Origin: Lineolata rhizophorae
Lineage: Eukaryota > Ascomycota > Dothideomycetes > Lineolatales > Lineolataceae
NCBI GenBank assembly: GCA_010093515.1
Contig: MU001682.1
Coordinates: 876,429 to 940,428, forward strand
DNA: 64,000 nt
Direction: 5' to 3'
Positions within the stretch are counted from its first letter, which is position 1, and the number at the start of each line of letters is the position of its first letter. Positions 6,785-55,069 of this stretch are shown in pieces. Under the pieces are notes generated by a model. It ran no database searches. It saw only the letters and a list, made by a program, of their open reading frames with translations, and had not been told where the DNA came from. Made by a program: the position numbers and the translations under genes.

Positions 6785-6960
6785 AATTCAAGGAGTTCTC
6801 TATGCATATCATCCCAGCCCACTATCAAAGGGCTTTCGCAATATCCCCTTATTTACTTCTAACGGAGTAATTCAGCCCGCTATCAAGGGCTCTTTCCACA
6901 GTACCTTAAAGCACATTGCTTCTGGCGGAGTGTCTCAGCCGACTAACAAGGACTTAAGAG
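6785..6960. repeat. three ~60-bp degenerate repeats, each with a short hairpin
   Basis: Repeats carry a GGAGT box about 10-25 nt before a hairpin: AGCCC...GGGCT at 6816-6834, AGCCC...GGGCT at 6874-6891, and a decayed AGCCGACTAACAAGGACT at 6937-6954. Hairpin spacing is 58 and 63 nt. The arm sequence and loop (ACTATCAA) resemble the 20-nt hairpin of the array at 7.7-11.4 kb, so this may be its left edge. Confidence 0.6.
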
Positions 6961-7381
6961 AATACCGGCCTATATGCAGAACTTATGCGAGCAGACTATA
7001 ATACATCGCATGTCGGTTTCCACCTCTCTTCCTGACCTTTTCTCCCAGATCCCTTTCTCCCCTTCTTCCACCACTCTCCCGCCCCCACCAACCTACGCCG
7101 ACTCGCAGCTAGCATCCAAAGAAGGAAGGAAAAGGAAGAGCATTAGTGCTTCCGGTCCAAGCCGGTCGAGCTGGATTGACTCGCAGATTGTGGCGTTCTG
7201 CGCCCCTACACCAACAGGAGATGCGTCGCCTCGCCAACCAGTTATCTCTCTATTCCACTTCGGTCTGAGCTAGACACTAAGAACTGTCAACTCCCATGGA
7301 TGTGGGGTGAGATCATGTCCAAAGACACACGAAAGTAGATGCTAGGAACGTAGTCTTGTAGTCGAGACTTGACAAAACGTT

Positions 7382-7708
7382 GCATGCACAGATGTTCCCA
7401 GACTCATTTATGTCTCGGGGTCCCGCCCTGGGGTTAGCAAGTCATCTGGTGACAAGATCATGTACGGACTGGACAAGTACCGTGGTATCTAACCATGTCA
7501 TACTATCTTATTCCCTTCCCACACGTTGGTGGTCTCGTGGTAGAGATTTAACTAAGGAAGGCATGCGCAGATATGTCTATTAATGCGTATGCCTGGTGTC
7601 TTTGGCGCTGGCTGAGCAAAGTTTCTGATATGAGAACATTCACGTCCTAGATCGACACCTTGGTAGCTAACTGCGTCAGTCTATCTTCATCTCTTCCCAC
7701 ATGTGGGA
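7382..7708. repeat. two diverged ~179-bp repeat units leading into the hairpin array
   Basis: Unit 1 starts at GCATGCACAGAT (7382) and unit 2 at GCATGCGCAGAT (7561). Both run on to a TCTATCTT/ACTATCTT...CTTCCCACA junction at about 7500 and 7700. Unit 2 holds a 9-bp stem with one G-T pair (GGCATGCGC with GCGTATGCC). The second junction leads straight into the first array hairpin at 7710. Confidence 0.55.
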
Positions 7709-7803
7709 CAGCCGCCGAAGAGAGCGGCTCATACACTCTTCCAGTCGTCCGTTTTATGCCGCTTTGCCTCTGCACAGGCAGTATACACAAAGCTCGAAGA
7801 CCA

Positions 7804-7824
7804 AGTCCACCATAAATATGGACT
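7804..7824. repeat. array hairpin C, copy 1
   Basis: Arms AGTCC and GGACT around an 11-nt loop, about 75 nt after the array hairpin at 7710, followed by CAGAAAAGACTT. It is homologous by position and flank to 8059-8081 and 8335-8358. A small hairpin TGCCTCTGCACAGGCA precedes it. Confidence 0.6.
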
Positions 7825-8058
7825 CAGAAAAGACTTAGCCTATATTCCGCACTGCTGTCCGACTTATATTGGAGGTAAACGTCCTGTTCAAGTAGATATG
7901 TCTTCTCTCCTTCTTTTCTTCACCTTTCTACTTCCTCTCCGCATCCCCATATTTAACCTCATATCCTCTGGACAGCCGTCTAGAAGAGCGGCTTATCTCA
8001 CTTTCTAAGAGTCGGTATGCCGCCTTGCCTTTGTACAGGCAGTATACGCAGAAGTGCC

Positions 8059-8081
8059 AAGTCCGTCCGAGATATGGACTT
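8059..8081. repeat. array hairpin C, copy 2
   Basis: Arms AAGTCC and GGACTT around an 11-nt loop, followed by TAGAAAGAGCTT. The preceding small hairpin is TGCCTTTGTACAGGCA, with loop changes only relative to copy 1. Confidence 0.6.
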
Positions 8082-8334
8082 TAGAAAGAGCTTACACTGT
8101 ACTCTACGTATCACACTGATGTCGAGCGGATCAACCGTCTTAAAGAGACTTAAAGCTATATGCCAAAGTCTCGCCAAGTTCTCTCCGCAGACGCTACATA
8201 CGTGGTGGGAGAGACGGTCGAAAATACGGAGACATCGAATTTTGCTCTTCTCTTCATTGACACCTTCGCAGGTGTGGGACAGCCGTCAAAGAATACGGCT
8301 CATACATTACGTCCGACGGACAGTAGATTGAAAT

Positions 8335-8358
8335 ACCACTTCCAAATATTAATGTGGT
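8335..8358. repeat. array hairpin C, copy 3, with both arms changed
   Basis: Arms ACCAC and GTGGT take the place of AGTCC and GGACT in the same position, followed by the same TGAGAAAGATCT box. Both arms differ yet pairing is kept. The preceding small hairpin here is GTCCGACGGAC. Confidence 0.55.
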
Positions 8359-9759
8359 CTTGAGAAAGATCTGGCCGATATAGCGTGCAAGCACTCGGAC
8401 ATCGGCCGGACTGTCTCCCGTTTTATTTTGCTTCAGTCCACGGGCAGTGGACTTCGTACGTGTGCGTCAAATTGCCGCGGAAGAAAGCGGCTTACACAAT
8501 AATATTCCGTATACGCGGAAAACATGTCACTTTTTCCTCTCACTCGACTGACCCACGTCATTCCTTTCGAATACCATATGCGTCATAAAAAGGAAACAGA
8601 CGGAGAGACATATGTCGCTCCTTGCTTTTTTCTCAAGCACGACCTTAACCGGACTTGTATGTCTACTTGAGGATTGTCTTACACCAGTAGATATCTTCTA
8701 CTTGTTCCTTTCCTTGCTTCACCCACACATGTTTTTTGACCTCCACGTACGAGACAGCCGCCACAAGATGCGGCTTGTGACGCTTTCTCTACTTCTTCTT
8801 ACGACACGAGAACACAGGCTTCACATGTTCGTGCGTCGTCCGCCTAAGAAAGTGGCCATATACTACTGATGGCCTGCACATACAGAGCAGTGTCAGTTTT
8901 TGTTTCTTTTCCCTCCACTTCAAAATTTCTTTTAACTGCCAATGAGAGAGACAGCCGGAGAAAAGAACGGCTCATACATTGATGCTGGCGCGCCGGTATT
9001 CTCCGAATAGAGAAACATGTGTCCCTTCTTGTTCTTGCTCAACCACATTAATAAGGCATCGGGTCGTGGTGGGAAACGCTGTCCAAAGATTACCTCATCA
9101 CTATGCCTCTGGAGCTGGCGTCCTGTACAGATGGAGACTCCGCGCATTTTGCTCTTCCGCCGCTATAGTCATGCGGGTGTAGAGACACGTCACTCTGCTG
9201 TTTTACCCGCTATACCGCCAAACAGGCATCGTATGTGTAAGGGAATAGCAGTCGAAGGATACGACTGATACAGTATGCTCGGCAAGTTGGTACATGAGGT
9301 CGAAACAAGGCCTTTTTTTCATCTCTTTTTCTTCTACTCCTGAAAATTTCCCTTGTCATGTCGATTTCCAGTATTTTGAATTCCAATACAAAGGATAGCC
9401 GTAGGAGAATACGGCATGTAATATGGTCCAGCCAACGGTTGGAATTACGGAAATGGCTATTCCCAGCCTAAAACATTCCTTATACCCTTTCCTCACATCT
9501 CCGCAAAAGTACATGGAGGAAACTACTCCCAACCAGGACAGGATCCCCCCCACGACCTAGAGGTACCTGTTCCAGCCATTTTCGTCGCTTTCGTCTACCA
9601 CATCCCCGAGTTGCCTCCAAGCCTGACCTTCTTTGAAGAGAATATGAAGGGTGACAATCCGTCTTCCAATAATTAGAGATTCAATTCTAGGACATTCAAT
9701 AGTTCAGACGCGTCGACAGTTACAATCCCGGTTCTGCTACTTGACAATTACTTTCCCAG

Positions 9760-9900
9760 TTTAACACGCGCTCGCTCAGGAAGAAGGAATCTTTATCCCA
9801 AAAATAATTCTGCGAACAAAAACATGTTTGGACACGCACCCATTCAGGAAGGAAGGATCTCCGCCAGCTGTTCCAAGGACAATTCTTTCAAGACATGTAT
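9760..9900. repeat. degenerate tandem pair within the hairpin array
   Basis: ACGCGCTCGCTCAGGAAGAA (9764-9783) recurs in diverged form as ACGCACCCATTCAGGAAGGA about 70 nt later, each followed by AGGAATCT/AGGATCTC. This falls in the 9.4-10.2 kb gap where no clear 20-nt hairpin was found. Confidence 0.4.
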
Positions 9901-11835
9901 GCGTGAGAGAATAGCTTACCAGAGCGTTTGTTCAAGACGCCTTCCTACTGTCCTGAACAATTCCACATATATCTCCTTTCTTCTCCTTCCGCCGTATACG
10001 TCCACAATCCCAATCTTCCGATGTGCGCAGAGTGGCTCTTGTCTCTCACTTAACTCTTACCGACATGGCCTACCCAGGATGCGTTCTTCACACCCTCAAC
10101 CATTTATGAGTGCTCATTTCCCCAACTGCGCGATGTACATAACTCGCACAGCTTCGCTTTCCCGTATTTCGGATAGCCGATAATAAACGCGGCCGCAAGA
10201 GAATGCCCTTTCCTCTTCCAATTTTCTCCGCCGCACATATACCATAGGAGCATAGATGCTCTCTCGCATTTAGCGGGGTCTCCCGCCTCTCTGAATCCCT
10301 CACTTTTAAGTTTTCCATACGCAGGATTGTCGCCCAGTACAGCGACTCGTTGAGATTAATACTCTTTGAAAACTTTACATGTCTGCAAACACTATGCTCC
10401 CTTTTTCCTCACCTTTCTCTGTTACATACACGCATTTACGGAACCTTTTAATGTGGTTGGGCTGGCTCTCTTACATTCTACACCCCGAGCTGGGTTGGCC
10501 GCCAATTAGCGCGGCCTATTTAATGTCCTTTTTATGGTCTTGACATATCGATAGATGTCTTCAGCTCTCTTTTCCTCGCCGAAAACGAGCAATTGAAACC
10601 CGCTGCTTGCGAGCTTGCTCCATTCCCTCTTATACTTCCGTTCACATACAAATAGCCGCTAACAAACGTGGCTGGTATGGATTCTCGGATCCGCAATTTT
10701 TTATCTTCTTTTTGTTTTCATTCTCACCTCCACGTACGGAAGGGAGAATTCCATGTTAGAATGCGTGAAACGATAGTCCTTTTATCATGGACTCCTTCGC
10801 AATAGATGGCTCCCGACAAGCGCGGCCTATACATTTCCATCCTGGCTATTTTCGCGAATGTCGCCTCTCACCTCCTATTTCTTTCTCCGCCCATTTACAC
10901 ATAAGCTATCTTTTCATGGGCATGGGGTCTATCCTTTCGAATGCACAGTTTCCCATGGCCGCTCAGTAATGTGGCTTCTACAAGTTTCTTTGTTGGTGTA
11001 TCGTACCCATCCACAAATGTCGTGTTCTCTTTTTTGCTAGCCACAATTGTGCCCATAATTAAGCATATGGCCGCCACACGATGCGGCCGTACAATAAGGA
11101 GTTTCTTCTTCCTCTTTTTTGTTGCACGCGTAACTGGCATCTCTGTGTGTGAGATGACTGTCACCAAGCACGGCCTTTACAGGACACCTGTTCATGCCTA
11201 AAAACATCAAAACATTACTTCTCAATTTCTCTCAGTTCTTTATTCATATCACTTTCATACATCCAAATGAAATATTTGATATGTGGGCCTATCTTCTGGG
11301 ACCGTCCTTCCCTTTTTTTCTACTTCGGTCTCACATATGCGTATCTCAATCTAGCCGCCATTCATGTACGACATGAGCTTCTGTCCTCCCACGCAATGCG
11401 ATCAATGGAATGGTTGCTGCCGGCATCGTCGCACGAAAAACTTTGCCGGTGGGCCGGGGCCAAGGGTGGAACGGCTCATTGTGGCACACTGGAGTGGTTG
11501 GGAAATTACGGGGTTTTGTTTGTGAAACCTGAATGTGGATCGGTGCATGGGTGGCTGCTGCGTAGGACGGATTTCCCGGATACGACGCAATTGATGGCCG
11601 GATAATTGTTCTGTTCTTTTTGTTTTTGCTTTGGATCGAATGAATGCTCTTGATTTAGTTACGTGTTAGCGGGCCAAGCGAGACCCAAGGGCGAATAGCC
11701 GCGTGAATCAATAACAAATCACGACGGAAGAACGATGAACGGATGTTGCAAGGAGGCTGTATGATATGATTGCAAACTGATCGCTGAGGGTCGAAGGTGC
11801 CCTCTGCCTCCTGGCGGATATCCAAGGGGATTGGC

Positions 11836-12043
11836 ATCACGTGTTCTTATATCAGGTGCCTTTCCCCATGCGGGAAAGGACCCACGTGATATGGCTCAAC
11901 ACTATGGTAACATTACACCAGGAGGTCCAAGTGCTTCTTGGTCTGATGGTGCACGGGGGATGGTGTATGCCAAAACCAAGGTTTGGTTTTGTCCTCTTCG
12001 AGGAGCAAAACATGGCTCTATGGTTCATGTCCTTTGAGGACAT
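11836..12043. repeat. chain of five adjacent hairpins at the right end of the array
   Basis: In order: ATCACGTG/CACGTGAT (11836-11843, 11883-11890) enclosing CCTTTCCC/GGGAAAGG (11859-11866, 11872-11879); CCAAG/CTTGG near 11930; CAAAACC/GGTTTTG (11971-11977, 11985-11991); TCCTC/GAGGA (11992-11996, 12000-12004); and ATGTCC/GGACAT (12027-12032, 12038-12043). Most of this 208-nt stretch can pair locally. Short open frames overlap it but none looks coding. Confidence 0.6.
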
Positions 12044-12049
12044 TTTTGA

Positions 12050-15000
12050 TGGAATTTTGCATTTCTCTGGGCGATGAGCTCACAACACGCAAGGAGAGGC
12101 ACGAGTGGCATTTTATGAGAGCTATGAATTCCGCTGCTCCGAATTTTAGAGGAATTGGTTGCCTCTGTATGCGTTTTTGGTACTGGACTGACGTCGTCTT
12201 GGACTAGTGGGGAGATGTCGAGGGGATTGGATACTGTCGTTTTCTTTGCAGTTGGAACTTGGAAGCGCTGAGTTCTGCTTCATATGAGGGGGCAAAATTG
12301 CGCAATCTGCAAGGCCACGAAACCAGGCAGATCGAGATTCACGTTCGCGGAGAGCAATCTTTCCTTCAATAACTGGCGTGGGTCTCGCTTGGGAGGACCT
12401 CACGGAAGTGCGTAAAGGAGCCACTGCGAAGACGGTCGCTCAACACTACGTTTTGCAACTTTACATCCCTGCAGCAAACAAGATACGATCTCTCGTGCGT
12501 ATGCAAGCATATTCATGGGAGAAGTGGTGCCCTGACTCTGCGGTTGGCCCAGCAGAAGGGCTTTATAACTTACGTCCCGTCCGCATAGGTCTGCCTAGTC
12601 CTCTTCTTGCTCGCTTTGTATGGGACGGTGTGTGTGCTCAAGTCGTGTAAAAGATAGGTACATGGCACTGTCGGCGGAAAGAATGATGCCCACACTTTCC
12701 CTACGATATTGTACTGTCCCCGTGGGACACAAACATTTCAAACACAGCATGTGGAGCTGTTATCCCCCCCCGACTTCACAGTTCTTTTCTTGGAGGATCG
12801 ACAATGTCTTGTCCGCGAAACAGTTGGCTTAAATAATCATCATGGCTTGTGGGAGTCTCAAAACTTCAACTCATTTCTATGGGAGTTTCCCAGAGTACAT
12901 TCTACTTTGGCATGGGAACAACCTCCTGCACGGATAACAAACTTCCAAGTTCAGCTCACATGAATTCCACGATACTAGTCTACCGCCAATTCGATGTTAT
13001 GTCCTTCGAAAAGGTCACGAAGACTAAGATTGTGACTGAAAAATTTAGCGCATGTTCGTGAATTTGTAAAAAAGACGCCGGACAGACACAATATGCCTAA
13101 AATTGCCATGGCTCGGAGCGTTTCTAAGACAGTATAAATTTGCCGGCCAATTCATAAATGGATGTGAGACCATTAGTACAACACGGCAATGCGGAGCATA
13201 TCCCGGACACGTACAGCTATGATACGTACGGGCTTGCCGGAAATGTCCTTCAATGAGACATCATCGTGATTACGCTACACATTCTACGTGGCGTATGACT
13301 ATTGACGACCAATGACTGACCGTAGTTAAACTAATGAGCTGTACAGCAACTGCGCAGACCATTATGAAGAGCGTTGTTTAATCTGGGCCCGCTACAGATC
13401 TGTGTAAGGAACAAAATACAATTAAAATTGGAAGCTGCACCATGAAAAATATGCCAAATAAAACGGGGTGGAAGCCATTTTTCTACTTTTTCAATTCGTC
13501 ATGCATCTGCACACTTCTGTAAAGCATATCTTGAAAGCATATCTTCTTAAGAGATCTTCTAGGCCAACCATTTGTTGGCTTTCAACGATGAAATTGGTCC
13601 GAGAGGCGTAAATAAGCCATTTACCAAAGGTTAAGGACATTTTTGGTTGGTGTTTGTAGTCCTAGGGAAATTTAGGCATCAAAAAAGAGCTCCCACTTAG
13701 TCTTGTGTTCGAATCAGATACCCACTGTTCACGTGGACTGGTCGACTTACCTCTTGCTACAAGCAAGAATGGGTGAGAATTTTAATCTTTCATTTTATGG
13801 CAATAGTCACTCTTGTGTATATCTTGTATTGTTTGTGATACCATAGTGCCGTCATTTCATTTATCTTCTTATTTTGATCAACGTTGGCCGTGTAATTTCG
13901 TTCGCATTTTTTCTATTTTTCCCATTACAATTGACATTTGTCTCTTAGATCCTGCTGCTCAATATGCCTTGAGGTGTCTAGTTTCGATCGCACTCTCAGC
14001 TTGATGTATCTCCAGACGCTCTTTGGCTTTTTGGTTGGTCTTTTGATGTCGTGTTCTTTGGTTTTCTATACCTTCTTTCTATTAATTCCCATGCTATCTA
14101 TGGACGATAAGGCCATCGGAGGAATGTAAAGTCTCGAGCAAGTGTCTACGTAAAAGAAAAAACGGCCATTTGAGAAAGCCTACAATCTACGAATAAGGCA
14201 AGACGTTTAGGACCCTTGTTCGTGAAAAGAGCGTATCGCATGCATAATGGTGCCTTAATAAGTTGCGTCTCAGTTCTCAGACTCCTAGGAATTAGACGTA
14301 AAGTAGTCAACACTGAATGCCAGCGGAAACTAGATTCCGAGATAAAAACTAGTTGAGGCAAAATATATGGACAACACACAAGAATCTGAAAAGGCGCTAC
14401 ATTTCTTCGGGTTTGAGAGATACCATCGCTGCCCGCTAGCACGATTGGAGCGATTTCGAATGCACTGCCTTAGCGCAACCCTACAACGTCTCAGGAGTAC
14501 ATGGCTTTCGTTGTTGGGGCGCAAGTTCGCCGGCTACACTAATTCGTTTTGTGTTTTCCCACCCTTGGGGCTCGCGGAATACTAGTAATTTAGGGATATG
14601 CGCTGAAAAAAAGCTGCGTAGGACAGCACAGCAGCATAATATTTGATATGTTGGACAGCATACGGTACGCAGTCGATATTGGCCCGTGAAAAACCTGGAG
14701 GAGAGCCAAGTGTGCTAGAAGACGTTTTTTGGTGTGATTAGAAGCAGTGGGGTAAGTCATGTGTCATCAAGACCAAAGAAAAATTTTCGATGGCATGGGC
14801 ACTTCGAGCTATGGCGGAGGGTATCTAGAGCATCGCAGCGGCATCAGTCTGCCCATAGTCATCTGTTCTTCTTAACTCCGCGGCCCCCACTTTCTGCCAA
14901 GTCCATTTCTTGTGCTAACAAGCTTTCTGCTTGACAAAAGCGACCAATCGCAAAGCTCTGCAGCTGACCGGCGGCATCCAAACATCTCAACGTCCCTCAC

Positions 15001-15770
15001 GCATCCTTTTTCAACTTAACTTCGCACGACCGGTCGCACAGAATCCTCCGCGCCCTCTCTTAGCGCACGAAACTTGGGAGCGTGCATCTCGTACGCGCCT
15101 GTTGCGTCGCATGCGTGCAACCTCAACGTTCGTTAGACAAAGCCGCTCGACCTAGGTGCGCAAATCTAGCGGACAAGCGGCTCATGAGCTTTGCAGGGTG
15201 TTTTAGGGCTTTTGAAAGTGCCGAGGTATCGCGAAGCGATAGCATTGGTTCACGGGACGGCCGTACGGGGTAGTTGAAGAAAGACGACGGTCGTAGCAAT
15301 GCCGTTGACTCATAACGTGAGATCCTTCCTGCATCCAGGAATGACTCTGCACTACCGGCACGTGACGCCAGCAGCCCTAGATATCTAAACGGAGCCAGAG
15401 GACACCTTCCACCCTCAGCGATCAGTTTGCCAATATATGCTTCCGGCCTCTTTGAATGATCTTTTCATTGTGCATTCATTGTGGTTTGATTGTCGATTCA
15501 CGCCTATTCGCCTTGCTCTCCTTAGCCTGTTAACAGTGGCGGGCGATACAGAAGAGGCCTCAGTACAACCATACTCTGCGGTAGGTTCAAAACAATGCCA
15601 TATTAATCTGTAGAGGTGTTAGCGAAGGAGGTGTGTGCTTGCTAGACAATATCTTGTGCTAATGAGAAGAACGCACCCCGATCGCAGAGTCATATCACGC
15701 AGATTCCCGTCCAAGCATTATCCGAAAGGCGACAACCCGACTCGCGATCGCCGAAGAAACAGCCAATTCA
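12050..15770. other. 3.7 kb without a supported gene
   Basis: Only short, overlapping open frames are present, with no recognisable motif and many starting at non-ATG codons. A perfect 6-bp hairpin TGTCCC/GGGACA lies near 12714-12728. Base composition moves towards AT around 13-14 kb. This is probably old repeat-derived DNA. Confidence 0.45.
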
Positions 15771-15777
15771 GCTCGCG

Positions 15778-17339
15778 ATGCCACTCCCACTTCCATCTCT
15801 CATGAAATCTTCTGCCTCCGCGCGTTTGGAGTCTCGTCCATCGCCTCCGGCCTCCCCACTACCACAGAAACCGACATCAACCTCTTCACTAGAGTCTCCA
15901 ACGGCACCATTGGCACAAGCACTAGGTTCGCCACCCAGCCCCGCTCCGACACCGGCACCGCCGTCGCGGCCCAAACGACCCAGCACGCCACTCTTTTGCG
16001 CCCACCCCACCTCCTCCCACACTTCCCTCCGCACCTCGCATGCGAGCTCCCTTCAAACGAGCTCCGGTCACGGCCAATCCAGCGTCGCCAATCCGAGCCA
16101 CCTCGCGACATCTGCGTCTGGCACATCCCACCAGTCTACCAAATCCAGCCAGTCCGGCAGTGGCAACAGTAGTGAGAGGCGGCGTTCCACTCACCATGGA
16201 AGCAATTCCCCACCGCCGAAAATTTTCATTCGCAAAGCGCGCAGGAGCGATATCAGAGCCATGGCGAGCGTCTGTTCCGAGGCATTCTGGAATGACGATC
16301 TCTTTGGTGAGCTGATACATCCAGCCCGGGCCAAGTTCCCAAGCGATTTCGAGCAATACTTTCGGAGGAGGGAGAGAGAATCATGGTGGAATAGGGAAAA
16401 GGAGGTTTGGGTCGCGGTTGTGGTGAAGAAAAGGAAGGGAAGGGGAAAAGATAAAGAAACGGAAGTTGCGAGAACAGAAGAGCGAGAAGTGGTGATTGGT
16501 GTAGCGGAGTGGCAGAGGATTGGTTGTGGAGTATGGGCTAGGGGCAGACAAAAGAAGAGGACTACATTTGCCAAAGCAGAAGAAAAGCACCCGGAAACTG
16601 AAGAACCCAAAGGCAGTTGTGAAAACAACAGTGCAGGCAATACCAATTATGACATATATATGAAGATCAGAGAAGACCCGGTGTGGTATGACACTCGTAA
16701 GTGTTCTCACTGAATGTTTACACGGCGGTTTAATAACTGTATTCTGTAGGGCTTCTACTCCGCCCGCTCTCTCGTGTTTTCAACGCTACGAGCAAGCTCC
16801 TTTCCCCCAACCGTGCCGCAAATCCGAAAATGCTAGACGTACTCGATCGCGCCCATGTCTACTATGGACGTTTCTGGGAGGAGTCTTGGCAAGACGAGCA
16901 AAGGCGTAAAGCACAAGCGCAGGCTATGGATGCTCCTAATCCTACCTCGACCTCAAATGCTGTAGGAACCCCAACTACTCTGACTACCGAACGAATTCCG
17001 GCTCTCACACAGCAACCCGTGCTACCACGTCGTCCCCACAATCATTCCCTTCACCTCGATCTCCTCGGCGTCCGCCCGGCGTATCAAGGCTACGGGGCGG
17101 GCCGTGCCTTGGTCGCTTGGGGCATCGAGCGCGCGCGTAGGGAAGGTAACATTAGCGCGAGCGTGGTGAGTGCCCCAGGGAAGGAACGGTTTTATCGGAG
17201 ATGCGGTTTTGGCGTCAGCGTAGGGTGGATTACCGAGGGTGATGGCAATCCTTTAAGAGGCCACTTAAGGGGTGGAGAAGTGTTGTTCTGGGACGGCGAT
17301 GGCGATGGAGATGGTGGGGAGAAGGGCATTGGCGCCTAA
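15778..17339 (+). CDS. GNAT-family N-acetyltransferase, two exons
   Basis: Predicted acetyl-CoA-dependent N-acetyltransferase; the substrate is unknown. Exons 15778-16696 and 16750-17339 join in phase (CGG split across the intron) to 502 codons plus TAA. The intron is 53 nt with a GTAAGT donor and a CTGTAG acceptor. Residues 1-147 are Ser/Pro/Thr-rich and low in complexity. The GNAT fold begins at about 148 (KIFIRKARRSDI). A charged insert (about 210-290) breaks it. The acetyl-CoA loop is clear at about 414-424 (VRPAYQGYGAG), followed by the motif-B-like ERFYRRCGF at about 452-460. It ends in a Gly/Asp run. The length is large for a GNAT because of the N-terminal extension and insert. It has no close neighbour gene. 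Confidence 0.85.
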
Positions 17340-28672: not shown

Positions 28673-28897
28673 GGGGAGCGTTGGAACGTCGAAATGGAAC
28701 CCTTTTGTTCTTCAGCACCCAGCAGTTCGACGAAGAAGAGAAAGAAAAGCTTCCATCTGGCAGTCGGGTTCTCAATTCCTGATCTCTTTAAAGATCTGTT
28801 TGAGTTTCTCTGTCTTCGTTTCGGCATTCCCTGTCTCCCGGTCTCTTTTAGCCTTTGATTGTCTTTGATATATTCCGATCTCGACCATATATCGAAA

Positions 28898-30928
28898 ATG
28901 AGGTTCTCGGCTTTCTTTGCCTTCACGGCCGCCGTCGCCGTCACGGCTGCCCCGACCAACCCCAAGGTCCGCCGCGCCACGGAGGAGTTCAACATCATCG
29001 TCGACAAGGCGGCCGATGTGCACGCGGTGCTTTCGGCCATCAACTTGACGGTCGACTCGTCCGACGTCGTGCAGGTCTTCAACAACACCGCCTTCCGCGG
29101 CTTCACGGGCACCATCACGGCGGACGAGGCCGACGCGCTCAACGCCCTCGACGAGGTGCGCGCCGTCGAGCGCCCCGTGGCCGTCATCTCGGCCGCCACG
29201 CGCAGCAACGCTCCTTGGGGCCTGCAGCGCATCTCGCAGTCGGAAACCGTCTCGGGCGGTACTGCCAGCCAGCCCATGTTCACCTACACGTACGAGGATA
29301 CGTCGCTGGGCGCCGGCGTCGACATCTACGTCATCGACACGGGCATCAACATCGGCCACAACGAGTTCGGCGGCCGCGCCGAGTACGGCTGGTCCGCGTA
29401 CAGCTCGGCCGACGACGGCAACGGCCACGGCACCCACTGCTCCGGCACCGCCGCCGGCTCTTCCTTTGGCGTCTCCAGCAACGCGAACTTGATTGCGGTG
29501 CGCATCCTTGACTCGAGCGGCAGCGGCACTACGTCTGCGGTAAGTTTGCTATTTTGGCATCCTGTTTCTTGCGATTTGAGTTCTGGTTGGTCGGATGAGG
29601 ACGCTCGAGTTGCTTGCCTTGCCTTATCACGACACGAGCTCTTGTCGCGGTAGTGGCGGTGGTGGTGGTGAGGAGGCGCACCTGTCTCATCCGCGCCTAT
29701 CTCGGCCCTATCGTCGTCGCCCGCCGTCCGGCCTCCAGTCCTGCGGGTAAGCCGCGTGAGCAGCCCGCTCCGTCGGACTGTTGGGGCGTCGTCGACAGCG
29801 GGCGGTGATGGTGAGGAGGTGAGGTGGGTGGGCCGGCAGGGATCCTGATATGCACGAGCAATTTGCGGAGGTGCTCGTGCACACGGCAATCGCCCCTGGT
29901 CCCTGCCCCGTCCCTGTGTCTGCCCCTCACCTCTGGGTACGGGCTACGTTTGGCGTCTTCTGCTTTCTGCTGGGAACCTTTCCGCAAGCTTGGAAGCGAA
30001 GCCGCCGGGCGCTGCCGCGGCGTGCGCCGCTTTCGACTGTACCGAGGCAGCGATGGCGGGTGCAGTGCATGCTGCTGTGTACCCGTCCGAGTCCGTGGAC
30101 AGAGGGCGAAGGAATCGGCGATGTGTGCCCTGTTCCTGGAGACACAGAGCCGGACGTGGACTCGGAGCTACTTGAGTGGCTCAACAGTTTTGCTGACTTG
30201 CAGTTCTTTCCCGGCAGGTCCTCGGCGGTCTCGATTACGTTGTCGACGCGCATAATGCGCGCAAGAGCCAGTCGGGCTTCATCGGCTCCGTCGCCAGCAT
30301 GAGCTGGGGCTTCACTGGCCGCTCGACGGTCGTTGAGGAGGCGCTGACTGCCATGGTTGATGCCGGTGTGCACGGCGCTGTGAGTTTCCACTCTCCATTT
30401 GCGCTTTTGACACCGTCTCTGCGAACGTCTCTGACTAACACGCGAATTTAGGCCGCCGCTGGCAACTCCAACACCGATGCCTGCACCATGACTCCTGGCT
30501 CCCTCGGCGGCGACGGCCCTCTTGTCTCCGTTGGCGCCTCCGACATCGACGATGAAATCGCCTACTTCTCGAACACCGGCCCTTGCGTCGACGTGTACGC
30601 TCCGGGCGTCGACGTCCTCTCTGCCTGGCGCGGCAGCTCCTCGGCTACCAACGTCATCTCGGGCACCTCGATGGCGACGCCGCACATCGCCGGTCTCATG
30701 GCCTACCTCCTCGAGCAGAACGGCTCCATGAGCCCCGCCCAGCTCAAACAGATGATCGTCAACATGGCCATCGAGGGCGAGCTCCAGACCCGCTCCGATA
30801 TCGTCCGCGGCGGCGAGCTGATTATCGCCAACAACGGCGTCACTACCGTGCAGGAGGTCAGCATCCAGAGCGAGGCTTTCCCGTATGAGATGGAGATGGT
30901 CGAGGGCGGCAACAAGCTTTACTGGTAA
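28898..30928 (+). CDS. secreted subtilisin-like serine protease (S8A, proteinase K type), three exons
   Basis: Extracellular endopeptidase made as a preproprotein. Exons 28898-29539, 30218-30379 and 30452-30928 join at phase 0 to 426 codons plus TAA. A signal peptide covers about residues 1-18. An inhibitor-I9-like propeptide follows to about 95 (FNIIVDKAADVH...RAVERPVAVI). The catalytic triad is present: Asp147 (YVIDTGI), His177 (GHGTHCSG) and Ser341 (SGTSMATPHIAG), with the oxyanion Asn273 (AAGNSN). Cys181, Cys279 and Cys313 could form disulfides. The length fits the proteinase K family with a somewhat long C-tail (about 392-426). Intron 1 is 678 nt, far longer than usual for a fungus and able to form hairpins; intron 2 is 72 nt. 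The start follows an A-rich context (TCGAAAATGA) and begins the signal peptide. Confidence 0.93.
29851..29881. repeat. 9-bp hairpin inside subtilase intron 1
   Basis: TGCACGAGC (29851-29859) and GCTCGTGCA (29873-29881) pair perfectly around a 13-nt loop. It lies within the 678-nt intron and may help bring the splice sites together. No role is shown. Confidence 0.55.
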
Positions 30929-32372: not shown

Positions 32373-33553
32373 TCATCGAGGCAGTTGTCGTCCTAGAGGC
32401 ACCATGCTCGAAGCTATGAGGGCGTCCTTATGCTTGCCACGAAAGTATGTGCCGAAGACGACGCCGCTGCATTTAGATGGTTTAGACACGTTTTTGTCGA
32501 CAGACTCGCATTTAGGCCAAGAGAATGAGTTAGATTCCGAACCTTCCAATATGGAATACTCCCAGTTTTGGAGGTTTCCCGGAAAAAGGCAAATGCCATT
32601 ACTTTCGCCCGAAGTGTAGGAATTTTTGGAATGGATAGCGCTCTGATCGCCCAACGAAGAAAACAAGAACGTGAAGACAGTTGAGGGAGGGTCTATCGGT
32701 AGGAGATGTGGTGCCACTCCCAATGTCGTGGCAGCCTGGGCCCTAGAATTCTGAAAATTCGTTTCCACATCGCCATGGATTTGCTACTACCACTATGGTA
32801 GCAGAAAAAACTAAAAATCTGGTTCGGTGAGAAATATGCGGAATTAATGCAGTTTCTGTCCGCCAGTCTTTAATTGCTGTCACCGATTGGATATTAGTAT
32901 TCCATCTTCAATGTCGTCGGAAAACGGTCACGCACTGTAATTTGAAATTTTGAATCTTTCCAGTTCTGAAAGTCCGATTTTTCTAGGCTTTCACGTTTCA
33001 CATGCTCGTCTTTCGCCTTCCTATCCAGTTGGATTTTCCGCGGCGCCTTTTCCATATTCCCATCTTTCAAGCTCTCATTCCTTTTCTTCCAACAGTTCCA
33101 TCTGATCGTAAGGAGGTTCTCACATTCCCGACATTGAAAGGATCGGGACTTTCTCTCTATCCAGGATTTTAGGTAGAGTCGATCCCTAAGAATATTTCGT
33201 GGGAACAGATACGGCCTAAAAGATGCACAGACCATGAAACTGCCATCTAGCTTGACCGAAAATCCTGGGAGACTTGGACGATGTTGGAAAGAATGAAGGT
33301 ATTCCAAATCTTCAATAATAGAGTGATTCTCTTGTGGCCTAACTTGAGATCCCGAACCTAAAATAGGGCCGTTACGCTTTGTCGAGGTATTTCATCCGTT
33401 GCCCATACTCTCTACTAGGACTTCCGAATCAGTTTTCATTTCTTTGTTTTCCTTTTGTCTGCTTTCAAACAAGAACTGCGGTATATTTTTACAGACGCAT
33501 CTCAGCTGATTTGCGCAAGCGTCACGGAGTGTTCGAGCAGCATCGAGGTCCAT
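32373..33553 (-). CDS. unrecognised protein, inferred two- or three-exon gene
   Basis: My model uses exon 1 33553-33409 (ATG, MDLDAARTLRDAC), a 51-nt intron (GTATGG donor, CGTAAC branch-like site, TTTTAG acceptor) that removes the in-frame TGA at 33394-33392, and exon 2 from 33357. Exon 2 either ends at TAA 32894 (202 residues) or splices at GTGCGT (32935) to TTTTCAG/exon 3 at 32750-32373 (314 residues). Both ends read as plausible coding sequence. The middle has a Cys-rich, basic patch (FQCRECENLLTIRWNCWKKR) that could be a small metal-binding or nucleic-acid-binding site, followed by a Lys/Glu-rich segment. No family is recognised and no signal peptide is seen. The exon structure is inferred. 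Confidence 0.5.
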
Positions 33554-34269
33554 ATCGTGTTGAAGTGGGGCGCAGGAGGAAGTGTATAGCGACCCTCTGC
33601 TATCCACTTATGTGTGAGCATGAGGTGAGGCGGTCACTGGCGATGTCATGTCGGTGTCGTTTCCAACTTGTCGAGGAGTCCCACGGGCCAGCTCCAGGAT
33701 TCGACCACCACGCCTTGGGAGCCCGGCTAGTGAGCTTGCAAGCATATACTTCCATCTCTCATCTCTAGCGGACCCTTCGTCCTTCCTCCACTCCACCCCA
33801 CCATTCAACCTTCTTTCCACATATTATGCTTTAAACGGAGACAACCAACGCTGGGAAAGTGAATACAGCTTCCTGGACACCGCTAAGGTCAGACTCATTA
33901 TTGCCCAAAAGTCTCCTTATATGCCGTGATGTGCCAGTAATTCCCAGGAGGTCGCGTTGTCCGCCATCTTTCTAAAATTCAGGAGCGGCTATGCCGAGCT
34001 TGCACGTCCAGTCTGTCCATTGCGAAAATCCTGCATGAATCACGAGACCGAACGTTGCTTTTGCTTCCACTATCCCAGCCACTTAAGCCTGGTCTTCACC
34101 GGTAAGTGTCAGCAGCGTTATGAGCGGGCTGTTCTTGACAGCGAATATTATCCGTCTAAAAAGGTCCGCCGTCCCAGCTACTTAGTCGTGGCCTTCCGCC
34201 ACAAGTGGAAGTGCGGTCAGAGACCTGCTCTTGATCGACTTTTGTCAAGGGGTAAGGTTTGAGTCCGGC

Positions 34270-36872
34270 TGGCCATGCCAGTGATGATCCTGGACTTGAT
34301 TCCGTGGGTCCTCTGGTTGCGGGACTGTGCGTGGACTCCCAAGCATGGACCTCCAGCCAGCTGGCAGGTCAGGGCCGAGTCGTCTGGGGCTCCCATCTCC
34401 TCGTGCTGCGTTGAGATGATACCGTCACGATGGCTGGGGAGAACGGCGCTACCATACCACAAGAATGTTGAAGGAGCTGGATCGAAGGCCGCTGAGCCGG
34501 ACTAGAAAATGATCGATGAGCTAGCATTGCTTCGTCGGCTGGGTTCCATCCAGAGGTAACATCCAGGAGAATTGGGGGAACGATTCAAGCATGGTTAAAT
34601 TCCGCTGAAGCCGGACTGAATGGGAGTTATTGATAAGCCAACATTGTCGTATTGGCATAGAGTTGCTCCAGGGCAGTTGCCTGGATCTGATCCCGGGGCC
34701 GCCTTTTCGATTAGGCGGGAAGTTCTCCGGCCCCATGGGTCCAGAACGAGGGAAGGATCGCTAATGTCGACTGATGATCGGGCAGACATGCCGGCTGCCA
34801 GGTTTTGTCGTTGGTCGCAACCGCGCAAATGCCACCGATGGAACTGGACCGCCACAATCGTGAACGGTTTTGGCAAGTCCGGACTCCGGACGATATTGCC
34901 ACCAGTGGCAACCTCGACCATTGGAATATGATCGAATCTGATCTAGGCGACGCTTGTCGTCTTTCAAGCAGTGCTGATCCGGTCCCCGGCTCCCGTATTT
35001 GACTTAGGGGCCTTCGCTCCCTGTTCCATTATAAACACATGGGCATTCCAAGTCCCCATGGTCTGACTAGGGACTCCTCCCAGATTTTCCGGCAATCTGT
35101 CCCTAGTGTTGAAGAAGGCCGGATTGTATAGCTCTTGATCCGGATCAGGACTCGTTGCGCGGTCCCTTACCGCTGCGAGGGCGGAGTGTCCGAACGGCGC
35201 GGGCGCCCAAGAATTCGCGAGCCTGTCCTTCCCTTTTGCCCTGATAACGTTGACTTCCATGCAAGCAGTCATCAGGGCTTCAAGATGCCCGCCGTTAAGG
35301 GTCGGGTTTTGAACAGGCCAACGATTTGGCCTCATTTTGCTTTTTTTCCGATCGCCTTCTACTTGAGCGGCCACGGACATGGCGGTCCATGGCCGCAGTA
35401 AGGCCAATGGCCGCTAAATTCCAGCCACTGGAGTCGCTCCGCGTCGGGAGCGATTACGTCGTGGCGATTGTCGCCATTATGAAGGACCCGGAATGATGGT
35501 CTGGAGGCCGACGGCGGCCTTGAATGTTGGAAGCCGGCATCGTCGCCGGCTAAGCAGCAACGGGTCTCGATGAGTCAATCTTGTGATCCAACGCGGTCTG
35601 TTGGCTGGCTGGCTGATTGGGCTTGATGAGGCGCAGACAGTGACTGGGTCAAACGGTCGTGGGCACTTTTCTCAGTCAGCCGTTTTAATTAACGACAGAA
35701 TGGATAATTCTTTCACGGCCTAGAAGTCGATTGCTCGACTTCTCCGGGCCACGAGTCATTCCATGCCGCCTCTCACCGGCAGCGGCATGATGGGAACATG
35801 GATTCCCTTGCAATGTGCAGCGCCGGCAGCGCGCAGCGCACGCAAATTTGATCCGCATCGCGGCCCTTGGTTGGTTGACTGATCCCTGATGTGACCGGCC
35901 AACTACCTCAGGCCGCGAGGCAATCCGGACCGCAGCTTCGCTGCTGCGACGTTAATGGTGAAGTCGACGCGCTGGTCGACTGGATTCGGGAAGTGCTTAC
36001 ACAGCACCGTGCAAGGCTGGCGAGGTCCGCTCGATGCCGCTTTTCTGACGGCGGCATCAGCGCGGGAGCGGCCTCGTCGCCGGCAAAGGAGGACGATTCC
36101 GGGTCGTAAAAGGACTCGGCAGCGGGCCCACGTCGTGAGCGCAAATTGAACGAGCCGACCCTGTCGGCTTATGTCTGTCGCGGTAGATATATCCACATCG
36201 ACATATCGACGGAGTTCCGTGAGAAATTTGGCCGGAGGAGTCTCCGTCGATCTTGTCCATGAGGTAAAGCTATTAGCATCCGTTCTTGCGGATATACTGC
36301 GGAAGAATCCTACCTGTGTGGCACCTTTCTTCATCTCTCCGTCACGTCTCTACTTGGCCTGCTCGCCCTGAGGACGAAGCAGTTTCCGGGGAACACCACG
36401 TGGAGGCGTAGAGTCCGATTTCGTTCCCCGTCCTCCTCTTGCACAGGCACTCCGCCGATATCGATGTCAGTATTGTGTGCCGTGCTCCTTTCCCTTTGCT
36501 CCACCCGTTTTGGTAAGCACCGGTACCGAGTGTGTCGAGAGTCCCAACGGCGTCTCGACACACTCGTTTCGGTGCGACCAACGGAGGTTGGTCTCGACGG
36601 TGCTGGTGTTGGCACTAAGTACCTAACAAATGTGTATAGCCCAGAAGTTGGGCTTGGGGTAGCTGTCATGCGCCAGCAGTAGAAGTGAGCGCAGTGGCCG
36701 GCGCGGGAGTCGATTGCGCTGCCGTGTCCGTTGTTGCTGTCGCTTTTGTCTGTTCCTCATGAGGAAGAGGGCTTTGGGAGCGCCCTGAGCGCTCCCGGGC
36801 AGCCGGGCGTCTCGCATGATATCGGGCGCCAACTGGCGCCGGTATTTGACCTGGATTCCCTCTCTCCAGGTC
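34270..36872. repeat. hairpin block B: dense perfect inverted repeats
   Basis: Hairpins follow one another every 50-150 nt. Examples by arm: GTCCGG/CCGGAC 34877-34891; TTGCCAC/GTGGCAA 34896-34911; CTAGGGAC/GTCCCTAG 35067-35106; GCCCTGAT/ATCAGGGC 35238-35278; AGGCCAA/TTGGCCT 35315-35332; GCGGCCA/TGGCCGC 35367-35396; TCGCTCC/GGAGCGA 35434-35453; AGCCGGC/GCCGGCT 35532-35551; AGAAGTCGA/TCGACTTCT 35722-35743; CATGCCGC/GCGGCATG 35762-35789; GATGCCGC/GCGGCATC 36033-36058; ATCGACGGAG/CTCCGTCGAT 36205-36251; CGGGGAAC/GTTCCCCG 36387-36430; GGGAGCGC/GCGCTCCC 36776-36796; GGCGCCA/TGGCGCC 36825-36840; GACCTGGA/TCCAGGTC 36848-36872. No coding frame of note crosses the block. The function is unknown. Confidence 0.7.
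36517..36575. repeat. 59-nt near-perfect hairpin (20 pairs), small-RNA-precursor-like
   Basis: Outer arms GCACCG (36517-36522) and CGGTGC (36570-36575), then a small internal loop, then a perfect 14-bp stem, CGAGTGTGTCGAGA (36527-36540) with TCTCGACACACTCG (36553-36566), closing a 12-nt loop. A 7-bp hairpin GACCAAC/GTTGGTC (36576-36593) follows directly. The size and shape resemble a small-RNA precursor. Expression is unknown. Confidence 0.65.
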
Positions 36873-36899
36873 GACCGTGCTGCTAAACAAACACTCCCC

Positions 36900-38340
36900 G
36901 CCCCGAGAGATGCCGGCCTGTCGCGGTTTTAGAAGTCGGAAACAGGGCTGCCGCCTTTAGGTCTGGGTTGTGACTCAAGGCCGGTTTCTCTTAGTTCCCT
37001 CAACGCTCTCAATCCCAATGCATCGTTCCTGGTGCCTCCTTTTCGCGTTGTTTCGTCAAAATAAAACGAAGTTGCGGCGCTTGGTAGGCAGCTGAGGTGG
37101 AAGGCAAGACTGCGTTTTGGGCCACCGCCCGTAACGCAACCGCCATCGTCCTTGAGCTAGACATCATGAGCCTCAGGATATTTGTGAGCGGATGCCATCT
37201 GTCGGCTCAGGCATTGCTCTAGGATCGAGCAAGGATTTGAGCAATTTCGAGCCGGGTCCGATTGAATACATAGTTCGCGTCTCTCCAATTCAAGGTCTGT
37301 TCATCGAATAATTTTAGACAGCAATTTGGATGGCCCGTCCAACAGTGTTTCCCTTTTGGAGTTTAGAGTTTTCTCTAGAATGAATGAGTTCCGCAAACCT
37401 TTCGACGAAGGTGCTCCACGAATCGAACAGTAGGTCTGGATGAATGATTGAAAGATGTAGCACTTGGTATTCCATCCACGTTTGCAATGGGTCAAATCAA
37501 ATGCAAGACCGGTACCGTATTTTCACGAAAAGGCTGCCATGATAGTCGACTTCGGCCCATCAGGGAGCCTCAAGTTGGGAACACTCGTCCTCAGGATAAC
37601 ATTCCAACCAAGACTTTCTTTCCGAATTTCTTCAACAAACGGATGATCTTCTAGGGGAAGTCTTCATGACTAGAGAACCTGTGCCGACCCAACTCCTTCG
37701 GCCCGAACGAAGTGGCTGTATGGGCGGCGTTGCACCTAGTGGCTGCAAGGAGTGCCATTCTTGTTGCTGTTGTCATTTCTCTGATGACTGCGATATTGTT
37801 GTAAGGCAGAGGGTCCCGTTCAGTTTGCCCCACCAAACCGACGAATTATTTTTGTGTCTCCCCTCCATCGGCCAAGCTTCGAATTGTTGTTAACCGATGT
37901 TTGGAAAACGTTTGACCAGAAGCGTTGCACGAAATGAGTGTGAAAGTCGAGGCGGGGTTCAACTAAAGCCAAGTACGTGGCTTCTAGTTCCTTTTGTCTG
38001 ATCTGTGGTTTGAAAGACTTGGAATTATGGAAAGGCGGTGGTATAAATTGACTGGAACTCGCTCAATGTTAGTGAGGCGATCTCTTCTGTAACAGTCGTC
38101 ATTTATCCGACGTACCTTGAGCAGCTGCGCTTTGAGCAAGTTCAGATGTGTTCCTCGAGAAACCGGCTAGAGAGTCAAAAGTATTGCAATCTTTCCACCT
38201 CAAGCCTCGTTGTTGTGAAAGAGAATGAAGAAGAAGAAATATGCACTGTCGAGAGAAACCGGGATCGGCGTCGTCCGTTTGTATCCGTTCTGATCGTACA
38301 TAAGCTGCGACACCAGCGCGTCCGTAGCGCCTCACGGCTG
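36900..38340. other. region between hairpin blocks, no supported gene
   Basis: Short frames only, none with a recognisable motif. A TATA-like GGTATAAATT lies near 38040 (+). Fewer strong inverted repeats were noticed than on either side. Confidence 0.35.
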
Positions 38341-48936: not shown

Positions 48937-51480
48937 CAGTTGCCTCAACGCAGATGGCTAGAGACAGAGGCAGGAATAATATGGGAGACACGCCAGCTTC
49001 ACAGATGATCCGAAGTTAGAAGCAATTGAAAGTCCGCAGGAGTTGTGTGGGAAGGTTAGGAACAATAACATTGCGTGGAGATTAAGGAGTTTATGGCGTA
49101 ATCTTGGAGCTTTTGGCGTACGGAGCTTGGAAGTTTGGTGTCCTGTAGTTTTGACTGATTGTGGCGACATTTCGAACGTTTCGCGTATCTTACAAGTCTT
49201 ACAGTTTTGAGTACTTTGTAGTGCTTCCAAGCCATGCGTTTATGAGTGCGTTTATGAGTCTCTAAACACCTGAGATTTGTAGTTTTATGATGTGTTGGAG
49301 ATATAGAGATGTGGGGTTTTGAAGTTGCGGAGTTCTGGCGTTCTGGCGTTCTGGCATTTGCCGTTGTAGTATTTCAGTTTGTTAACAGTGTAAGAGCATG
49401 TACATTCTTAAAGCAAGCAAAACATTAATAGGGCGGAGTTTAAGGAAGCAAAGTCCAAGAGTCTAGTTACATTGTTGCTCCCAAGGGTCGATATCACGTT
49501 TCATTGTATCCAACAATGACTGCTGTGGTAGAGCAGATACTTTCACCAGCCCACACTACTTGTTAATAGCAATACTTGTCGAATACCTACATGTAGCATG
49601 GCCATACAACCATCATATGAATGTTCCCAGCGCAATAGACTATAAACGTGGCCGCTTTAACGCAACTTTGCATTACGCGGTGATGTAAAACCCATTTGTT
49701 CATGGAAAACAGGTTGGCCATGTCGGAAAGCCCAACACGTACGACAGGGCTTCATAGCTATAAGAAGGGCAAAAGCCGGTGATAATGCAATAGCAAATGC
49801 GAAGCTTAAATGTAGCAAGTCAAAGAATTTGAAGGTACATATTTATAGAGAAAGCAGCAATAGATAGGGTTTGGATAGAATAAGTAGCTTTCCAGCAACC
49901 CTTCATTGCATCATGTGCTAATGTATACATTATTTTTCCATAGCACACACTCCTTCTTTTCTTCTCTGGATACAGTTTAAGCCGGTTTTGATATACTCTA
50001 CATCTATGAATATGACACGGTTGGGAAGATCCTTCCATGAACGGAAGGCTCACGTGATCGAGGCTGGATCTTATAAGGATCCAACCTCGATCCAATTCTT
50101 AGATAGCAATTCATCCATTCTTATCCATATTCTGCCCATCGTGCACTTCGTGATTGACCCATCAATCCGGCCCCGGTCGCCCATCGACCGGACCCTGATC
50201 TGAAATCAACTATCTAGTGAGATTCGCATCTCCACCATTCAATCCGCCTGCCAGAAAGCAGACCGTGACAGAATATCTATGTGCTGCTGTGAAAGAAGAA
50301 AAAAAGTATAAACGACGCATTTTAGTTTGGCGGTGGGAAAGAACATGGCAGAGAGCGCTATATCAAGCGTGAGTTCCAAGGAATATTGGTTGGATGTTGA
50401 GGTCCCGGACCATTTCATCCGTCTTTCTTTGCCACCAACTGTATTCTCAACAGAACCTTCTATTGCCACCTTATGACAATGTTGAACATGTCGAAGACCT
50501 GATTTCAGTCCCCTTTTGTACTAGTTTTACTTTCTTCTTGCTGTGTTCATTTTCAGCTCCTTTCTCCTCTCTGTTCTCGTCAATCAATATAAGCCAGGCA
50601 TTGCATTCTAAGATAGACTCGGGGAGTATGTCGTGTAACTTTTGGTAGAAGAATTTGATAGCTCGTATATATCTATTCGAGAGAATTTTGGGCGTCTTTT
50701 GTAAATGAGAGATGGAGTTTCTCTCATCTCCCGATCATACTCCAGTAGAGCCAAGTGCACGAAGGGAAACATCAACGTCAGCCTAGTGCTGTATTTTAAC
50801 GTAGAGTCCAAGGGGATGAAGTAGGACGTCTCCCAATAACTTTCCGTGCTCGGGCATACTAATTTAAACAAATTCTGGACATGACTCGTGTCTTGCAAAA
50901 CGGGGTAACCTTTGCGCTAAAAGATGTTGGTAGAACTCACTAGATACATGAAGCAGCCAACATCATTTAGGCGTCGTATTTTGAGATATAGTCGGAGATA
51001 ATGTTGCTTTTAATGACCCGCAAATATCTACCCCAAAAGACGCTCGGCGTTATGTCTGCAATGAGCCCTGAGGTATGGAGATAATACAAAACGGGTGAAC
51101 TTGAGCTGAAAGACGTCGAAAAGATGAGTCTAGAGAAAGACGATGGCCGGGACGTGGGCTTCCTGCGGCTTTTTAGAAAGCCAACCGATACCGCCTCAAA
51201 TATGCTGATGTTCTTAAGGCAAGATAATTCCAGTATTATAACTTTCGCTATCGCGGACGCCAGCGCATCCTGCGACGTTAATAAGGGGCTTAGACACGAC
51301 AATAGATTTTCTGCCGTCAGCCTCCTATTGCAATCCTCAACATCACGTTTCCACTTCTGAAACGCATTGTCCGCGTCTGCGCCGGTCCCACTAGGTCTCT
51401 TACTCTCCTAGTTGCACATGCAGCGCCCTATAGGGGCGATCAAACAGTAGTTTTGAAAAATCGCTTGTCCGTGGCCCGTA
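48937..51480. other. AT-rich intergenic region with hairpins
   Basis: No supported gene. Minus frames at 50898-50608 and 51302-50967 are open for about 100 codons but lack recognisable motifs. Two notable inverted repeats lie at 50056-50092 and 50173-50191. Confidence 0.4.
50056..50092. repeat. 15-bp hairpin with one C-A mismatch
   Basis: GATCGAGGCTGGATC (50056-50070) and GATCCAACCTCGATC (50078-50092) pair at 14 of 15 positions around TTATAAG. A second hairpin CCGGTCG/CGACCGG lies at 50173-50191. Confidence 0.65.
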
Positions 51481-51489
51481 CGATCTTAT

Positions 51490-54670: not shown

Positions 54671-55069
54671 AGGCTTTATATTCAGTCCAGGTTCGTGCTC
54701 AGGACGTCTCCGCCTTACTTCCCGTCGTAGGCGGCAGGAACAGAGGAGGTTCGACGGACCAACATGCCGCCGTGCGAGGGTAGAGACCGGGGAGCATCGA
54801 ACGAGCTAAGCTGTAGCTCGGTTGGCTGTTCTGGTCGGCGCAGGGATGAATTGTCGCTGATAGGCGCGACACACATATCGTTGGTGAGGTCGATAGTGAA
54901 TGAAAGCAGAGACTAGAGTGGCTATGCCGAGTTTAGCATGGAGGGATTGTTTGTTGCAACTGAACAACACCAAAGCCGAACAACCTTCGTGCAGGTCGAC
55001 GTCGTTTACGACCTCAGACTGAGTATTTGAGAGATAGAAAGGCCAGCGGAAATATAATTGTATTCACTT

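Follow-up and report, generated by a model that had tools for sequence, protein, structure and literature searches.

An array of sixteen short hairpins that mostly keep their pairing through sequence change: a candidate structured RNA in Lineolata rhizophorae

The window analysed here is a stretch of 64,000 nucleotides from the 31-Mb genome of the fungus Lineolata rhizophorae (contig C13, positions 876429-940428). It contains an array of 16 short hairpin units, all on the plus strand and in one orientation within one 3.5-kb stretch (7704-11184), in which the bases of the stems change from copy to copy. Of the readings of the array, selection acting on a folded single strand has the best support, short of proof, because the copies covary in aggregate, because units held out of a structure model were recovered by structure, because the loops are A-rich on one strand and because the hairpin length is constant. 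Most likely, the array specifies a portion of a candidate non-coding RNA of about 4 kb with many hairpins, working like the repeated stem-loops of roX and Xist, a reading that we put forward tentatively, at a little under even confidence.

The hairpin array

A sequence-only reading of this DNA had described about 17 copies of a 20-nt stem-loop over 3.7 kb. Sixteen of these 17 align; the copy proposed at 11353 was omitted after a first alignment, and the model does not match it at any E up to 10. Also excluded from the set was a further, weak copy at 8832-8865, which scores 11.2 bits (E 1.3). The 16 units align gap-free over 35 columns with a mean column identity of 66%, and the hairpin, a 6-bp stem with an 8-nt loop, has the claimed constant length of 20 nt in all copies, with no insertion or deletion. 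Each unit consists of RRAY, an arm with the consensus AGCCGC, the loop of eight bases, the arm GCGGCT and then NNTANA. Columns above the conservation cut were all found within -4 to +25 of the hairpin start in a scan from -70 to +89, so that the conserved zone reaches from 4 nt 5' of the hairpin to 6 nt 3' of it; the spacers between the units are diverged. The start-to-start spacings are 264, 307, 192, 283, 197, 294, 150, 778, 153, 169, 157, 154, 149, 112 and 87 nt.

The flanks had been described differently before, and that description did not hold. The CACRTG-like box precedes 2 of the 16 units, and the conservation cut is passed by no column between -70 and -5. The exact words GGACA and CATACA each occur in 3 of 16; RRAY on the 5' side of the hairpin and NNTANA on its 3' side describe the flanks better. 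The pyrimidine tract proposed upstream does exist as an enrichment at 50-11 nt before the hairpins, but it is modest, with a pyrimidine fraction of 0.65-0.71. The exclusion of a CRISPR was borne out by the column identity and by spacings of 87-778 nt, as opposed to near-identical repeats with regular spacers, and no tRNA gene was found in the window. An H/ACA small nucleolar RNA, which has two larger hairpins with H and ACA boxes, was rejected as well, there being no match to an Rfam family of this kind and a hairpin of 20 nt only.

The stem variants named previously are all present in the alignment. Unit 1 (7704-7738, hairpin 7710-7729, AGCCGC/GCGGCT) is supported by alignment and model match and has a local pairing probability of 0.97 on the plus strand. 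Alignment, model match and local folding together support unit 3 (8275-8309, hairpin 8281-8300, with a compensated pair in AGCCGT/ACGGCT), unit 4 (8467-8501, hairpin 8473-8492), unit 5 (8750-8784, hairpin 8756-8775) and unit 8 (9391-9425, hairpin 9397-9416, inner pair compensated). Alignment and model match also support unit 2 (7968-8002, hairpin 7974-7993, one G.U), unit 9 (10169-10203, a weakened hairpin at 10175-10194) and unit 16 (11150-11184, hairpin 11156-11175, GACTGT/ACGGCC), as well as unit 6 (8947-8981, hairpin 8953-8972, inner G.A mismatch) and unit 14 (10951-10985, hairpin 10957-10976, two G.U), in which local formation is weakly predicted, with probabilities on the plus strand of 0.18 and 0.23, respectively. 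Unit 7 (9241-9275) carries the shifted stem CAGTCG/CGACTG reported before, found here at 9249-9267; it has alignment and model match, and the local prediction is for the minus and not the plus strand. Units 11 (10491-10525, hairpin 10497-10516) and 15 (11063-11097, hairpin 11069-11088) both have GGCCGC/GCGGCC stems, and unit 13 (10802-10836, hairpin 10808-10827) combines a compensated outer pair with an inner mismatch; these three were matched out of sample, as described below. So were unit 10 (10322-10356, hairpin 10328-10347, compensated, GTCGC/GCGAC), also supported by alignment and model match, and unit 12 (10648-10682, hairpin 10654-10673, AGCCGC/GTGGCT with a wobble), also supported by alignment and local folding.

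Pairing, recovery by structure and loop bias

The earlier claim that pairing is mostly kept despite changed bases holds in aggregate. Standard pairs occupy 86 of the 96 stem cells (89.6%), 80 of them Watson-Crick and 6 G.U. Ten cells are altered on both sides, 9 of which are Watson-Crick and one of which, in unit 6, is not; 15 cells are altered on one side, of which 6 are G.U. The 9 cells changed on both sides compare with 3.3 +/- 1.3 in shuffled alignments, and the covariation score of 0.322 compares with 0.211 +/- 0.028; neither value was reached by any of 500 shuffles. Since related copies can mimic covariation, substitutions were also simulated along a tree of the copies (n=300). Under this tree-aware null the covariation score was reached in 2 of 300 simulations and the observed pairing in 0 of 300. 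Pair 12-21 is the top-scoring one among all column pairs at least 4 apart (E 0.88).

For recovery of held-out units, a structure model (R2) was trained on units 1-8 only and searched against both strands of the 64 kb, and the same alignment with the pairing removed served as a sequence-only model (R3). The six best R2 matches outside the training set were units 11 (18.7 bits, E 0.0044), 15 (16.4 bits, E 0.023) and 13 (16.2 bits, E 0.026), a site at 54846 (15.3 bits), and units 12 (13.5 bits, E 0.19) and 10 (11.3 bits). Thus five of the eight held-out units were recovered, and units 9, 14 and 16 were missed. With R3, in contrast, units 9, 12, 15 and part of 13 appeared at E>=1, among chance matches and ranked below a chance match at 40184. 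The two halves of the array are thus tied together by structure and sequence far better than by sequence alone. The best R2 matches in control DNA, 100 kb of the same genome taken as 10 of 20 sampled 10-kb stretches, scored 14.7, 13.8, 13.8 and 13.2 bits. Units 11, 15 and 13 are therefore above the control, whereas units 12 and 10 are not by score and are supported by their place and strand.

The site at 54846 scores 19.6 bits with model R1 and is possibly a chance match. A candidate relative on contig C30 (23.3 bits with R1) was rejected, as it lies inside a coding exon as judged by eye. R1 was run on the C30 locus and on 7 of the 20 sampled stretches, and a GC-rich one of these (L016) scores 18.5, so that scores like those of C30 and 54846 can arise by chance. 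A flanked pattern allowing up to 3 mismatches matched the genome 4 times, always in the array, and the control not at all; with a looser pattern there were 7 matches, 4 of them in the array, against 4 in controls. No convincing copy of the unit was found elsewhere in the genome by these patterns, which recover just 4 of the 16 known units, so that diverged copies elsewhere could escape them. Nor did any long stretch of the array's DNA match another place in the genome.

Perfect 5-bp stems between 7.0 and 11.6 kb number 14 at a span of 18 nt and 10 at a span of 20 nt, against 4.5 expected in each case if base use is taken as equal, and for most of the remaining spans in the range examined (14-27 nt) the counts come closer to expectation. 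Hairpin density as such was rejected as a signal, because the array is not extreme in this respect: 1-kb bins with at least 6 perfect hairpins make up 5 of 64 in the window and 7 of 200 in the genome sample.

The loops of the 16 units contain 63 A, 15 T, 25 C and 25 G among 128 bases (p about 1e-9 for A), in a stretch whose plus strand has 24% A and 29% T. Loop position 3 is A in 12 of 16 copies and loop position 6 in 13 of 16. This strand bias is not expected of DNA bound by a symmetric protein dimer but would be explained by unpaired adenines in an RNA read from the plus strand. The sequence-only reading had offered selection on either an RNA or a cruciform; of the two, RNA fits better because of the loop bias. 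Folding in a 140-nt context predicts the hairpin cores at a probability of at least 0.77 in 9 of 16 units on the plus and 7 of 16 on the minus strand. The mean core probability is 0.56 on plus and 0.47 on minus, compared with 0.01 at 120 control positions on the plus strand, and the strand preference from folding alone is therefore weak.

Several results weigh against a selected RNA fold. Local formation is predicted on neither strand for four of the 16 units (2, 9, 13 and 16), and the array as a whole folds with an energy only slightly on the low side, with a mean z of -0.74 on plus and -0.54 on minus where the remaining window has -0.21 and -0.23. Ten of the 96 stem cells are unpaired, and the 6 G.U pairs just slightly outnumber the A.C-type mismatches, which are 3 of the 10 non-pairs. 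The number of stem pairs with a change on both sides (3) was reached in 49 of 500 shuffles and that of further pair types in 410 of 500, both unexceptional, and the cells changed on both sides were reached in 16 of 300 tree-aware simulations. A covariation test of the R-scape kind had been suggested for such an array; the aggregate signal described above is there, but with 16 copies no single column pair reaches E<0.05.

Interpretation of the array

If the array belongs to a long non-coding RNA, transcription would run rightward from a pyrimidine-rich stretch at about 7.04-7.11 kb, and the plus strand would be the RNA. The sixteen stem-loops, each with its A-rich loop and fixed flanks, could then dock one RNA-binding protein, and the many copies might act jointly as a multivalent scaffold or sponge. 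As to origin, units 1 and 2 also have in common a 35-nt element (89% identity) and a 33-nt element (73%), and units 1 and 3 have 43 nt in common with 81% identity. Given these longer shared segments, the array probably grew by tandem duplication, after which selection would have retained the hairpins while the spacers drifted. That the array stands for a fast-evolving multivalent structured RNA of fungi, its structure kept more than its sequence, and so for a counterpart of the roX or Xist repeats, is a wider proposal and a somewhat doubtful one. This gene-poor stretch may also contain several long structured non-coding loci, the array among them, one of which holds a ribozyme candidate like that of hepatitis delta virus (HDV).

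The array could instead be a functionless, decaying tandem duplication whose ancestor was palindromic, in which template switching from arm to arm yields paired changes without selection. The longer diverged segments common to units 1-3 would be expected of it, and the four hairpins not predicted to form, the modest tree-aware covariation and the dispersed repeats in the same intergenic gap all suit it. However, conservation does not reach beyond some 30 nt at the hairpin, none of the 16 copies has an insertion or deletion, and the unpaired loop bases are both conserved and strand-biased. A general process of arm correction is not evident either, since sampled 500-bp bins that look non-coding (1.18 in 65 bins) are not richer in hairpins than those that look coding (1.21 in 335 bins). 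We consider such decay an unlikely explanation.

A second possibility is that the 20-bp dyads are sites of a dimeric DNA-binding protein, such as a zinc-cluster regulator with CCG/CGG half-sites or a Ume6-like protein; the core of the URS1 element is TAGCCGCC. The array would then be a cluster of sites that regulates genes or organises chromatin, placed between the genes of the amino acid permease and the acetyltransferase. The exact spacing and the palindromic CCG..CGG halves would suit a dimer, and the ten open frames between 6.9 and 15.5 kb that lack Pfam matches are expected of regulatory DNA, although equally of a non-coding RNA. GCCGC/GCGGC occurs 5 times outside the hairpins against 3.1 expected, which is not significant, and AGCCG/CGGCT (1 against 4.0 expected) and GCCG/CGGC (12 against 13.9) are not enriched there. 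Genome-wide the bare dyad occurs at control frequency (141 against 146). Moreover, the two halves change together beyond what independent half-sites would give, by the shuffles as well as by the tree-aware null, and the loops and flanks are asymmetric between strands. We regard both the binding sites and the cluster that they would form as quite unlikely.

It is improbable that the units are separate small RNA genes or processing signals, each with a pyrimidine-rich promoter of its own, and not parts of one long RNA. Such genes would fit the spacings of 87-307 nt (one of 778) and the rise in pyrimidines before the hairpins, but no conserved promoter box was found upstream, no Rfam family exceeds its threshold in the array (permissive settings over 7000-12200 returned two matches, neither reaching the gathering score), and tRNA genes are absent from the window. 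A short mobile hairpin element with a local spread, comparable to the hairpin elements of mitochondria, would be likewise short, GC-rich, hairpin-forming and present in many copies, but it is highly improbable, as 16 of 16 copies share one orientation in one 3.5-kb stretch and the genome patterns, within their recovery of 4 of 16 units, gave no convincing copy elsewhere.

Surroundings of the array

The array occupies the left half of a gap from about 6.9 to 15.6 kb in which no gene was recognised, with Pfam matches in none of the 10 open frames tested (101-168 codons). To the left, an amino acid permease on the minus strand was matched by frames at 1304-1753 and 1606-2589; to the right are a frame with an acetyltransferase domain (16737-17336) and two frames of a subtilase (28859-29650 and 30452-30925). 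The U2 small nuclear RNA gene at 46.5 kb is the sole Rfam match at the gathering score in the window. The strong pyrimidine-rich stretch upstream of the array, at 7040-7110 on the plus strand, is a possible promoter as judged from its sequence; it falls inside an open frame of 108 codons (6947-7270) that has no Pfam match. Intron-like patterns on the plus strand were not in excess (2 against 1.8 expected). The right half of the gap contains a dispersed repeat of up to 250 bp in two mutually inverted copies (11663-11912 and about 15359-15535), with further copies on many contigs.

The array also contains other hairpins on the plus strand. One with the stem AGTCC/GGACT occurs four times, at 7804-7824, about 8059-8081, 8435-8453 and 10775-10793, against once in the remaining window and once in a 200-kb sample. 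A third shared element, with the hairpin TGCCT/AGGCA, is present at 7755-7789 and 8016-8050, the two copies being 89% identical.

Two other stretches of the window are rich in hairpins. The first (33400-37400, minus strand) has 24 perfect hairpins of at least 6 bp in 4 kb, compared with 8.6 per 4 kb in the remaining window; it is largely single-copy, with four short partial matches elsewhere, and includes one hairpin of 14 bp. The second (50500-55600) has 20 in 5.1 kb, among them the hairpin at 54846, and its loops are T-rich on the plus strand and so A-rich on the minus. The loop A/T bias has p=0.20 in the first and p=0.005 in the second, and the loop skews are 2.2 and 3.4; because 2 of 59 sampled chunks reach skews of 2.8-3.0, these biases are merely suggestive. 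Dispersed repeats lie at 55596-55705 (about 110 bp) and 50013-50271 (about 258 bp), the stretch holding both giving 51 matches, itself included, and a hairpin, ATCGCAC ttca GTGCGAT, is present in the shorter of the two. Elsewhere, a sampled stretch of contig C14 (L026, 2500-6500) has 18 perfect hairpins in 4 kb, their loops without A/T bias.

The ribozyme candidate lies in the first of the two stretches, at 36429-36345 on the minus strand, and matches the HDV-like ribozyme family RF02682 with 27.9 bits, below the threshold of 44. RF02682 is also the best family for a related stretch on C13 near 866.8 kb (L038, 1513-1584; 31.2 bits) and for a third on C9 near 97.7 kb (L043, 1579-1478, minus; 27.6 bits), both again below 44. 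A core pattern derived from the first two candidates matches these three sites in the genome and has no match in the control. In an alignment judged by eye, the pairing of P1, P2 and P3 is preserved despite changed bases, and P4 is of variable length. Variant HDV ribozymes are known in fungi, and their cleavage has been shown (PMC5640933). Further short, diverged direct repeats occur on C13 near 866 kb (L038, 2446-2670, and 535-560 / 2954-2979); by eye they seem able to form hairpins, whose stems show changes such as that of GGC to GGT facing GCC.

Relation to known systems

The dyad sites of zinc-cluster proteins and URS1 resemble the array in having CCG/CGG half-sites at fixed spacing; the array differs in its paired change, the strand bias of its loops and the lack of a genome-wide excess of the dyad. 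Mitochondrial repetitive hairpin elements are described as short, GC-rich or AT-rich and present in many copies (PMC2800124), spread over many intergenic regions, whereas the array is clustered in one place and runs in one direction.

Structured RNAs of fungi have been recognised by their structure through comparative genomics (PMC8216456; PMC5640933). The four intergenic RNAs reported in PMC8216456 are described as single structures found across species, in contrast to the 16-fold array here. The main text of PMC5640933 does not use the word 'tandem', and that of a 2025 review of fungal long non-coding RNAs (PMC12566771) uses neither 'hairpin' nor 'stem-loop'. Among the papers listed, few of them from subscription journals, titles and the beginnings of abstracts gave no report of hairpins arrayed in tandem in the nuclear genome of a fungus, which is weak evidence of novelty. 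If our reading is true, the array would be a long structured RNA recognisable within one genome because its repeats covary; structural selection could then be tested without an alignment of species, and the array would be a pointer to repeat-based RNA scaffolds in fungi.

The closest parallels that we see are in animals, and they would concern the way of working and not kinship, which we do not claim. The roX1 and roX2 RNAs of Drosophila, with their tandem roXbox stem-loops, share with the 16 units of the array the repetition of stem-loops in one locus. As described in PMC4719309, these stem-loops are often the sole recognisable feature between orthologs, and more copies give better rescue. 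The array differs in its kingdom, in the lack of a dosage system and in its A-rich loop of 8 nt, and it is known from sequence alone. In Xist, eight A-repeats in one non-coding RNA are described as jointly recruiting a protein complex and are reported to fold, four repeats at a time, into two long stem-loops (PMC4881525), whereas in the array each unit is a closed hairpin, the copies are more numerous and the spacing is wider.

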